DNA of 25,750 nucleotides from positions 1 to 25,750 of the IMG/VR virus record IMGVR_UViG_3300024273_000078; one strand, written 5' to 3'. The notes beneath the pieces are model-generated. The model did no database searches. It saw only the letters and a list, made by a program, of their open reading frames with translations, and had not been told where the DNA came from. Origin of the DNA: a virus. Shown in pieces: positions 10,760 through 13,758 of the stretch. A program made the translations under genes and the position numbers. Position 1 is the stretch's first letter, and each line of letters begins with the position of its first letter.

Positions 10760-10945
10760 ATGAGCATCGAAGGCAGAATGGAATCGTTACAGCGCAAACA
10801 TCAAGAACTGCATAACAAAGTGGAAGTTCTTGAAGCAGAGAAAGCACCCGAGAAGTATATCCTTCCTATCAAGAAACAAAAACTACATATCAAAGACGAA
10901 ATGTGTCATTTGAAAAAAAGACTTGACAGTCAACCAGTTCTATGA
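10760..10945 (+). CDS. DUF465/YdcH-like small coiled-coil protein
   Basis: The 61-residue product is almost entirely a helical hairpin: MSIEGRMESLQRKHQELHNK, a turn near residues 28-34, then KKQKLHIKDEMCHLKKRL. That layout matches DUF465 (YdcH) proteins, which are short, charged and of unknown function. The ATG at 10760 follows AGGGAG by six bases and is preferred to a longer frame starting inside gene 46 at 10697. It is probably co-transcribed with 47-46. Its 3' end contains the -35 of the next promoter. Confidence 0.75.
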   Translation: MSIEGRMESLQRKHQELHNKVEVLEAEKAPEKYILPIKKQKLHIKDEMCHLKKRLDSQPVL

Positions 10946-10951
10946 TATTGT
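10923..10951 (+). promoter_or_regulatory. Sigma70-type promoter for the DruA-like gene
   Basis: TTGACA (10923-10928), 17 bases, TATTGT (10946-10951), with TGa before the -10. The -10 begins at the first base after the DUF465 stop, and the DruA-like ORF starts 41 bases on. The -10 is weaker than those of the core genes. Confidence 0.6.
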
Positions 10952-10991
10952 AGGTTACAGGTTTGTGATAGAGTAAAGAATGGGTAAATGA

Positions 10992-12308
10992 ATGACGATT
11001 GAAGAACAGTGGGCGCTATGGCAGGAATCAAACTCGCTAGATGACATACCAAATGTCACAGAAGACCAAGTACGTGATGCTCTGATCAAAGATTTGACAG
11101 AAGTTTCGGCAATGACTGTAGGCGAATATACACTCTATGGCAAGTGGCTAGAAGTTCAAAACAAATATCCAACGCAGACTGTTAACACTCTCTTCGGTGA
11201 AGAGACGCAACTTCTGGACACAACACAGCAATTCTTGATCGATGAGGTCAAGTCCAACATCTGGCGACCTAGTTCGAACGATGATTATATGAATCTAAAG
11301 CCACGTCTGTTGTATACTGACGACAGCGGCGTCTTGAAAGGCAAAGGCGTTGACGGCAGTGACGTGGAATCTGTTATCAAGCGCACAAAGGACCTGCCAG
11401 AGAAGTGGAACACACTGCGCAACTTTATGTCTACCATGAAGAACAACTCTAATATCGGCCGCAATCTTAACTTTATGGTCGAAGACGAAGTGACTGGCAA
11501 GTATCTCGGTGTTATCTGTATTTCGTCCGACTTTCTTGACTTGACACCTCGTGATCAATGGATCGGTTGGGCAAGAGAGAATAAGACACAAGGACATATG
11601 ATCAACTATACTGCAATCGGGTCTACTATTGTACCTACGCAGCCGCTAGGTTATAACTATGTTGGCGGTAAGTTGCTTGCTCTGTTGTGTCTATCTGACA
11701 CTGTTCAACAGCTATGGAAAGAACAGTACGGCGATACTTTGATCGGTGTAACAACCACTTCGCTCTATGGCAAATCAAAAGCAGGCGGTCTATCCCAGTA
11801 TGACAATCTAAAACACTGGAAGAAAATGGGCTACACCTCTGGTTCTATGGCTTATGAGGCTACAAAAGCTACACAGTATATGATTCGACATTGGTTGCAA
11901 CGCAACCATACATACAAATACTTTGAATGGTATGGCGCAAAGAAAGAAACAGGTCAGCCTTATAAGCGTGATCATCGCAACCGTTCGTATCACTTCGCTT
12001 ACTCAAAGCTGGGTATCCCGAAAAACTTGGCAAGTGCGCCACATGCCCGAGGCATCTACTTTAGTCCCTTGTATGAAAACAGCCGTGAGTTCTTGCGTGG
12101 CGAGATAGCAGAAGACAAACTAGTCAAGTTATTTGACACCAGTGAAGCGTCTCTGACCGAGCTATGGAAAACAAAATATGCAGCCAAGCGCATAAGGAGT
12201 CTGGTTGAGAGGGATGCTGTGTCGGATGAGACACTGTTCTATGACGACCTGATTGGTATGTCGTGGCAGGACGTGAAAGACAAGTATCTCTCGCAAGTTG
12301 GCAGATAG
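10992..12308 (+). CDS. DUF4338/DruA-like protein
   Basis: The 438-residue protein has no T4 counterpart. Its centre resembles DUF4338, the family of DruA in Druantia anti-phage systems: YLGVICISS (171-179), RDQWIGWAREN (187-197), a YNYVGGKLLALLCLS block (221-235) and GVTTTSLYG (252-260), matching the DUF4338 order of GVI-S, RD-WIGW, a core small-residue helix and a catalytic-looking beta-Thr region. The C-terminal part has conserved-looking aromatic/basic stretches (ARGIYFSPLYENSREFLRGE, 352-371). The N-terminal 100 residues are unassigned. DUF4338 is thought to be DNA-associated, but its chemistry is not settled. The gene follows its own sigma70-like promoter, has a weak SD, and is followed 67 bases later by a DUF262-HNH gene. 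Family call is from motif memory; a phage-specific branch is likely. Confidence 0.65.
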   Translation: MTIEEQWALWQESNSLDDIPNVTEDQVRDALIKDLTEVSAMTVGEYTLYGKWLEVQNKYPTQTVNTLFGEETQLLDTTQQFLIDEVKSNIWRPSSNDDYMNLKPRLLYTDDSGVLKGKGVDGSDVESVIKRTKDLPEKWNTLRNFMSTMKNNSNIGRNLNFMVEDEVTGKYLGVICISSDFLDLTPRDQWIGWARENKTQGHMINYTAIGSTIVPTQPLGYNYVGGKLLALLCLSDTVQQLWKEQYGDTLIGVTTTSLYGKSKAGGLSQYDNLKHWKKMGYTSGSMAYEATKATQYMIRHWLQRNHTYKYFEWYGAKKETGQPYKRDHRNRSYHFAYSKLGIPKNLASAPHARGIYFSPLYENSREFLRGEIAEDKLVKLFDTSEASLTELWKTKYAAKRIRSLVERDAVSDETLFYDDLIGMSWQDVKDKYLSQVGR

Positions 12309-12320
12309 GTGGTTGCCAAC
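12297..12320 (+). other. Stem-loop straddling the DruA-like stop codon
   Basis: A 7-bp perfect inverted repeat (GTTGGCA/TGCCAAC) with a 10-base loop overlaps the TAG stop at 12306-12308. There is no T tract, so termination is doubtful; it may be an RNA processing or stability element. The rest of the 67-base gap shows no gene. Confidence 0.4.
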
Positions 12321-12375
12321 GACACGAATCGGTGCTACATTCAAGTAGTGATGTTAAACAACTAGGAATTATATT

Positions 12376-13758
12376 ATGAGCGTCTTGCGTATAATCAACT
12401 CGTACACAGACCAAATTGAACTTTCCCAATTCAAAGATATCAGCAACCAAATTTGCTGCGATCTTGCCTTCCAAGCAAATGAAACGACTCGCTGGTCAGA
12501 TGAACAGCGTTCCGCATTTATCACTTCGTTTATAACAAACAAAGCACCTTCGCCCTTAATCTTCGCAGATATCGCAGCCTGTTTGGCAAACGCAATCAAG
12601 TACGAAAATATTGCTGATATCGAATATTTCGAGCGCTGGAGCAAACTAGGCAAATACATGAACCTAGACGGCAACAACCGAGTGATCTGTTTAGGCGACT
12701 TCATTCAAGGCCGAGTAGCAATTCTGCCAGGTGTCTATTACGTTGGCGGCAGCTTCCATACAATCGTAGCAGGCAAGAATGATACCATTTCTACATTGCC
12801 AAAAGCAATGCTTGGCCGCTTTGAGAAAGCGATTTTGACAATCGTGGTTTACACAGATGCTTCTCGTGAAGAACTGTCAGACCTTTTTGGCAATGTTAAC
12901 GAAGGCTCTCCTTTAAATAACGCCGAGAAGCGCAATGCACGAACCTCTGATATTGCAGCCATGGTACGTGGTCTTGCAAAACAGTATCGCCCATTCTTCT
13001 CTCAAGCCAATACGAAGTGGTTCCCAAAGAAGCAAGTGAACCGACGTAGCATCGATGACTTCATTGCTTCGCTCTGCTTTGTCCACTTCAACGGTCTCGA
13101 AAAAACTATCGGCACCAAGTCACTGATGGATATGTACCGTGTTGGTTCCAATGAAGATGTTTACATCAAATCCTTCGAAAGTTCCTTCAAAAACTTCATG
13201 AAGGTGGTTGAGAATTACCCCGACTTATGTGCCTTGACAAACCGCAACTTGCTGCTTGATCTATACTACATCATCGAAACCTCTAAGAAAGATAGCCAAG
13301 AGTTCAAAGACAAAGCACACCGTGAGAAGTTTTTGCACCAGTTCATCGTGGCTTCTGGCGAACTGGTACACGAGCGCAAGCTGCATGTCATGGGCGTGGG
13401 TAAGAATGCCAAGGCAAAGACCTTTGACCACCTGGTAGGCGGTCAACAGATGGCAAACAACAAAAAGCGCCACGAGTTGTTGATGTCGAAAATTGATCTT
13501 ACCAACTACTTCAACACTATCAGCCCGACTCGCAGTGCAAGCGCTTTGACCCGCTTGGGTGCGGCAGTTCGTGACAACTTGAAGACGCCAGAAGGCAAGG
13601 ACATCGACTTGTCAAAACTGCATGACGGCAAGACCTATCACGGTGGCCACATCACGCCTTCTGCCGACGGTGGCAATGCCGACTTGTCGAACATCGCTAT
13701 CCAGGAAGCACGTGATAACCTGATCCTTGGTCGCAAACCTATCGAATATGCAAATTAA
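12376..13758 (+). CDS. DUF262-like protein with C-terminal HNH motif
   Basis: The 460-residue product has a DUF262 (ParB-like) pattern at the N-terminus: RWSDEQRSAFITSFITN (39-55), the hallmark DGNNR (98-102, usual form DGQQR) and VNEGSPLNNAEKRNA (174-188). The C-terminus carries a HNH-like nuclease motif, GGHITPSADGG (423-433) followed by SNIAIQEARDNL (438-449). DUF262 plus nuclease occurs in type IV restriction enzymes of the GmrSD group and in SspE-like defence proteins; other DUF262 proteins are phage-borne with unknown roles. The ATG follows AGGA by eight bases. Codon choice in the last third (many TTG Leu and C-ending codons) looks richer in GC than its neighbours, suggesting separate acquisition. 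Function as a nuclease is inferred; target unknown. Confidence 0.75.
   Translation: MSVLRIINSYTDQIELSQFKDISNQICCDLAFQANETTRWSDEQRSAFITSFITNKAPSPLIFADIAACLANAIKYENIADIEYFERWSKLGKYMNLDGNNRVICLGDFIQGRVAILPGVYYVGGSFHTIVAGKNDTISTLPKAMLGRFEKAILTIVVYTDASREELSDLFGNVNEGSPLNNAEKRNARTSDIAAMVRGLAKQYRPFFSQANTKWFPKKQVNRRSIDDFIASLCFVHFNGLEKTIGTKSLMDMYRVGSNEDVYIKSFESSFKNFMKVVENYPDLCALTNRNLLLDLYYIIETSKKDSQEFKDKAHREKFLHQFIVASGELVHERKLHVMGVGKNAKAKTFDHLVGGQQMANNKKRHELLMSKIDLTNYFNTISPTRSASALTRLGAAVRDNLKTPEGKDIDLSKLHDGKTYHGGHITPSADGGNADLSNIAIQEARDNLILGRKPIEYAN

Follow-up and report, generated by a model that had tools for sequence, protein, structure and literature searches.

Results

A DruA-like gene and a DUF262-HNH gene between gp46 and dexA

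The stretch of DNA analysed here (the window) comprises 25,750 bases of a single IMG/VR viral record, IMGVR_UViG_3300024273_000078, and is a genome fragment of a marine T4-like myovirus. Its genes run in the order gp20-like, 21, 22, 23, 19, uvsY, uvsW, 55, 47, 46, DUF465-like, DruA-like, DUF262-HNH, dexA, MazG-like, 45, 44, 62, dut, hsp20, 43, uvsX and 41, where the names of the first gene and of the MazG-like gene rest on position and weak matches. At a GC content of 43%, the host of the virus need not be SAR11. An earlier note on this DNA had singled out the DruA-like gene and the DUF262-HNH gene (encoding D262) as a pair, and both reading frames, their shared strand and their position between gp46/DUF465-like on one side and dexA on the other are confirmed (Table 1). 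The same pair is found in a second contig (L002/L018), with 99.67% identity across 13,380 bases. The note had also given the pair its own promoter; a promoter-like site does lie ahead of the DruA-like gene and a weaker one ahead of D262, but neither is significant by itself, and both are candidates only. Stronger promoter-like sites are found at the equivalent place in L125, L128, L139, L145, L147 and L157, and the partner genes of several related loci are preceded by near-perfect ones.

Table 1. Features of the DruA-D262 locus (window coordinates)
Feature	Position	Strand	Basis
Promoter-like TTGACA-N17-TATTGT, before DruA-like gene	10923..10951	+	10/12 matches; shuffle p=0.08; candidate
DruA/DUF4338-like protein, 438 aa, putative DNA-marking GNAT (writer)	10992..12308	+	PF14236, PADLOC, AF2
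GNAT-like fold, about residues 103-382	11298..12137	+	VIA-align ranges
Promoter-like TTGCCA-N17-TACATT, before D262	12313..12341	+	9/12 matches; shuffle p=0.16; candidate
D262, DUF262/ParB-fold + HNH, 460 aa, putative mark-reading nuclease (reader)	12376..13758	+	AF2, Foldseek
ParB/DUF262-like nucleotide-binding domain, about residues 10-179	12403..12912	+	ParB Z 6.4-6.8, SspE Z 6.5
HNH domain, residues 389-460, H-G-G-H-I-T-P ... N ... N	13540..13755	+	Cas9 HNH 7mpz

The DruA-like protein is predicted to have a GNAT fold

The proposed DUF4338/DruA family membership of the first protein is borne out by a Pfam profile search, in which residues 148-370 match PF14236 well above the cut-off (E=1.2e-23; 84.2 bits, cut-off 27), and by a PADLOC match to DruA (2e-21). 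DUF4338 has been placed in the GNAT superfamily earlier (PMC10853773), and the AF2 model (pLDDT 85) indeed has the GNAT fold expected on that basis. Among 998 chains compared by VIA-align, the best match to the model is Mom, the DNA-modifying enzyme of phage Mu (8bv8_B; Z 9.7, 174 residues, 4.1 A), aligned over residues 97-371; nearly all top rows are GNAT-type acetyltransferases (Z 8-9.7), and SpeG and other GNATs, metabolic ones included, fall within 1 Z unit of Mom, which makes the first place a tie. At the profile level, PF14236 is the sole Pfam family matching the window protein at E<=0.1, with no match to the Mom profile PF25680, and a DruA-Mom profile comparison, with a single Mom sequence as input, gave a probability of 0.2%. 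Judged by its predicted fold, the DruA-like protein may act on DNA as a modifier. Foldseek also matches the model to proteins predicted from the giant viruses Faunusvirus, Yasminevirus and Dasosvirus (BFVD A0A3G4ZXG3 and others), with E-values down to 5e-19; the best match is 23% identical.

D262 is predicted to join a ParB/DUF262 fold to an HNH fold

For the second protein, the DUF262 label holds through the predicted fold but not through the Pfam profile, as PF03235 is matched below its cut-off (E=0.006; 17.2 bits, cut-off 33.2). Foldseek with the AF2 model (pLDDT 86) returns BrxU first (E=1e-3), ParB N-domains next and DndI further down, and VIA-align agrees, with a Z of 8.0 for BrxU, 6.5 for SspE (residues 3-179) and 6.4-6.8 for ParB. 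Within this domain lies a DGNNR motif (residues 98-102), of which D98, N101 and R102 are invariant in 16 diverse relatives. The HNH label is upheld by a predicted Cas9-like HNH fold (7mpz; Z 8.6, 1.9 A, 71 residues), whose H425, N439 and N448 are invariant in the same 16 relatives. In the branch of the window protein, the usual Asp directly before the His is replaced by Gly (H-G-G-H), while L132, a more distant relative, has D-R-G-H at the same place; judging from the residues, this replacement could alter or abolish cleavage. Some His-Me nucleases have this same order and hold the metal mainly by Asn, so activity of the HNH domain is plausible yet uncertain, and DNA cutting by D262 would be in keeping with the predicted model.

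In both genes, dN lies far below dS (for D262 pairs, dN 0.08-0.27 against dS 0.26 to about 2.5), and both are therefore under purifying selection. The nearest D262 relative outside the virus itself is 39% identical, and no bacterial relatives were found in the genome contigs or plasmids searched.

DruA is widespread in the phage group

Relatives of the window DruA are encoded by at least 152 viral contigs, from which 80 loci were kept. These match the query at near-full length with 57-73% identity, except for the near-identical contig of L018, and mostly lie right behind gp46, with or without an intervening peptide-deformylase-like gene. The closest named relatives are those of the Pelagibacter phages Mosig (59% identity) and HTVC008M (54%). 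In cyanophages, a second (cyanophage-type) subfamily with about 25% identity lies between gp44 and gp62. Both types are present in HTVC008M (L086:7974-9116 and L170:3007-4131), one downstream of gp46 and shorter than its relatives, the other between gp43 and uvsX. The note's description of the pair as an accessory island thus fits the nuclease but not DruA: D262, unlike DruA, is an accessory gene. DruA seemed to evolve more slowly than gp46 (median identity 59% vs 41%), but we do not count this as evidence, the loci having been picked by DruA similarity.

DruA is followed by D262 in a minority of its carriers; other relatives have MazG, nucleotidyltransferase-like, VWA-domain or further families behind it, and at a gp19-gp23 site DruA stands without a partner in L141 and L161. 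Several further arrangements were seen. Two differing DruA-like genes lie in tandem near gp43 in L168 (2280-4705) and L169 (969-3475), contigs that are binned as Thermoplasmata and are probably viral. A small family of about 142-181 aa, in which FGHCHTA or FGHCYHS is followed further on by WHWW/HWW, adjoins DruA of both subfamilies (L014, L019, L132, L158). Between gp46 and DruA, L053 and L068 carry a 176-aa protein (L053:5202-5732) with the motif TNPPW, which by eye only is of the adenine-methyltransferase type.

DruA and D262 are adjacent more often than by chance

For the adjacency statistic, we used loci found by D262 queries only, grouped at 50% identity into 13 groups; loci L124-L142, which came from a DruA query, were excluded because DruA is present there by design. 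DruA or, once, Mom lies directly upstream of D262 in 6 of the 13 groups, one of which is mixed (L096 adjoins DruA/Mom, L099 does not). The binomial tail is 1.6e-9 if adjacency is expected in 1% of cases per group and 9e-4 at 10%, figures that are rough because the groups partly depend on one another and the expected rate was set by assumption. The pairing of DruA and D262 thus recurs more than by chance, far from the near absence of adjacent homologues that the earlier note had named as evidence against it. For the gp46-linked type of DruA, adjacency to D262 is rare, being limited among the 80 kept loci to L053 and L068 besides the window's virus, but across the nuclease family at large it is common; the upstream genes adjoining D262 also include the second DruA subfamily and Mom. 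Most cyanophage D262 genes do not adjoin DruA, nor do those of L088-L093 and L099.

Two other neighbourhoods were observed. In the viral contigs L101 and L102, a Mom gene (PF25680, E=2e-49) lies directly upstream of a DUF262-HNH gene (in L101, Mom at 387-1193 and DUF262-HNH at 1290-2624). In L103 (2381-4377), the gene directly behind D262 encodes a dexA-like exonuclease, an arrangement shared with the window, and no DruA was found there.

Partners are swapped behind DruA as whole genes

Comparison of close relatives places sharp breaks just behind DruA. L124 and L125 are 99.7% identical across 7,195 bases, to 31 nt past the DruA stop, after which they carry differing D262s with 31% identity. 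L053 and L068 are 89.9% identical across 7,274 bases, to 17 nt past the DruA stop; beyond it come D262s that share 21% identity, and immediately downstream of these the two contigs match again at 98.8%. L126 and L128 agree at 98.1% as far as the DruA stop; there L126 continues with genes for 327 aa and 189 aa, L128 with one for a 343-aa ParB-like protein, and identity returns near the start of gp43 (85.8%). In L131 and L132, whose flanks are 97-98% identical and whose DruA genes are 91% identical, the pair was replaced together: one has DruA followed by a ParB-like gene, the other D262 followed by DruA. Over the 12 rows of the DruA tree we count at least seven partner changes, with the closest pairs bearing different partners. 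All of this evidence comes from metagenomic viral contigs, in which misassembly is possible in a single case but less so for a recurring pattern, and the window represents a single lineage.

The 343-aa protein (ParB-like-A) is linked to ParB by PHROG 1033 (E=0.0024) and by a tblastn match to a protein annotated ParB/RepB/Spo0J (E=7e-6), and hhalign detected no relation between it and D262. The 327-aa and 189-aa proteins of L126 had looked ParB-like and PD-(D/E)xK-like by eye only, and searches gave no support for this.

The ParB-like partner also permits a comparison between two genome sites. Between L128 (hsp20-gp43 site) and L157 (gp19-gp23 site, where the adjacent genes run on the other strand from the pair), it is mostly 85-98% identical per 100 columns, whereas the DruA beside it is 49-77% identical. 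As the partner is conserved across both sites and DruA less so, the partner follows DruA and not the site. That the pair always moves as a single unit is weakened by the lone DruA of L141 and L161, which shows that the two genes are not always one moving unit.

Discussion

A conserved writer with exchangeable readers?

From the gene order, the protein families, the predicted folds, the repeated adjacency, the exchange of whole genes at the DruA stop and the purifying selection, we propose that DruA and D262 form a writer-reader pair, with an exchangeable nuclease aimed at host or rival-phage DNA, a reading to which we give slightly less than an even chance. The DruA-like GNAT would mark DNA with an acyl-type group as Mom does and, since DruA is so widespread in these phages, the phage's own DNA would then be marked. 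D262 would act as a nuclease that is driven by a nucleotide and senses marks; it would spare or make use of the phage mark and cleave the other DNA present in the cell, be it the host chromosome or a competing phage. Which state of the mark is attacked can be put in terms of likelihood: that marked DNA is protected appears likelier than that marked DNA is attacked. The reader may cut unmarked DNA, comparable to the attack of T4 on host DNA, or take the mark as an activator. The writer, and with it the mark, would be kept and the reader exchanged wholesale, which agrees with a DruA that is conserved while the genes behind it are swapped. A modification-sensing pair, one of the roles considered in the earlier note, is the best-supported role, while the activity itself is something we infer.

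The main rival is an insertion hot spot after DruA, at which D262 would be one of several arrivals and the role of DruA unrelated; we regard it as a serious if somewhat doubtful explanation. It accounts for the sharp swap boundaries and for the MazG, nucleotidyltransferase-like, VWA-domain and other genes behind DruA, and it sits well with DruA standing alone at gp19-gp23 and with D262 relatives at other sites, such as that of L099, which shares 63% identity with its counterpart in L068 and does not adjoin DruA. It explains less well why Mom, another GNAT-fold DNA modifier, lies directly before D262 in L101/L102 and why close partner relatives are found behind DruA at two genome sites and on differing strands relative to their neighbours, and the joint replacement of DruA and partner in L131/L132 also speaks against it.

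Two further explanations carry less weight. DruA could acetylate a protein, such as host RNA polymerase, with D262 degrading host DNA on its own in the manner of T4 endonucleases II and IV. Many GNATs do target proteins or small molecules, SpeG and others tie with Mom in our structural comparison, and Rac is a precedent for a phage GNAT that targets host RNA polymerase (PMC7824862); however, the recurrent linkage to DUF262/ParB-type proteins, whose domain is that of modification-sensing nucleases (PMC10952713), and the Mom-D262 pair make this improbable. We hold it to be more improbable still that D262 is a selfish HNH endonuclease of the homing type, which spreads by cutting D262-less alleles beside DruA and brings the phage no benefit. 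In favour of this are the HNH domain and the fact that near-identical phages have, lack or replace the entire gene at a single point. Against it stand the large, conserved ParB/DUF262 domain with a nucleotide motif under purifying selection, the presence in the same slot of ParB-like-A, in which no nuclease domain was detected, and the spread of the D262 family over several unrelated sites.

If the writer-reader pair is taken one step further, a conserved DruA writer with swappable ParB/DUF262-type readers would constitute an inter-phage self/non-self system in marine T4-like phages, a generalization that we put forward tentatively and consider possible rather than probable. If true, the weapon varies under a constant mark, DruA, so far known from bacterial Druantia, gains a DNA-modifying GNAT role, and the function of DruA becomes testable in the cultured phages HTVC008M, Mosig and S-SSM7. 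The available portions of the literature on the family yielded no statement on the biochemical role of DruA. Marine T4-like phages include phages infecting SAR11 and marine Synechococcus, and the system would add a further layer of phage-vs-phage or phage-vs-host DNA discrimination in these abundant ocean viruses. In SAR11 hosts, restriction-modification systems are rare (PMC7029224).

Comparison with known systems

Finally, we would like to place the pair beside systems that are already known. DruA-like proteins of the same family have been noted in six Synechococcus phages (PMC12774648); DUF262/ParB-type partners and partner swaps are not mentioned in the available part of that work. The DruA of type I Druantia belongs to the same Pfam family, PF14236, whereas the DruA described here is a widespread gene of a phage group. 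The tie to Druantia drawn in the earlier note finds no support at the level of a system: within the window fragment, no YprA-type helicase (DruE) or other Dru gene adjoins DruA, the helicases of the window being uvsW and gp41.

BrxU and GmrSD cut modified DNA, and SspE is a nicking enzyme that senses a phosphorothioate mark (PMC10952713). It is these proteins that D262 is predicted to resemble most, sharing a predicted ParB/DUF262 NTPase domain, a helical middle and a C-terminal HNH, and the succession of a ParB/DUF262 fold and an HNH fold that defines the type is present in the predicted model. The differences lie in the details: in place of the (I/V)DGQQR and DHIYP-like motifs (PMC10952713), the window D262 has LDGNNR and GGHITP, the family having DGNNR or DSNNR instead of DGQQR and its HNH reading G-H here instead of D-H. 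D262 also lacks a significant Pfam DUF262 score, and it is phage-encoded and lies beside its own putative modifier.

The jumbo-phage fusions of Mom (momylation) to a nuclease are predicted to serve self-protection and attack on host or superinfecting DNA (PMC7824862). These share with our pair the tie between a GNAT modifier and a nuclease in a phage, as well as the predicted logic. They differ in that the modifier here is DruA/DUF4338 and not Pfam Mom, and in that the nuclease is a DUF262-HNH protein encoded by a separate gene, which is swapped among close relatives.
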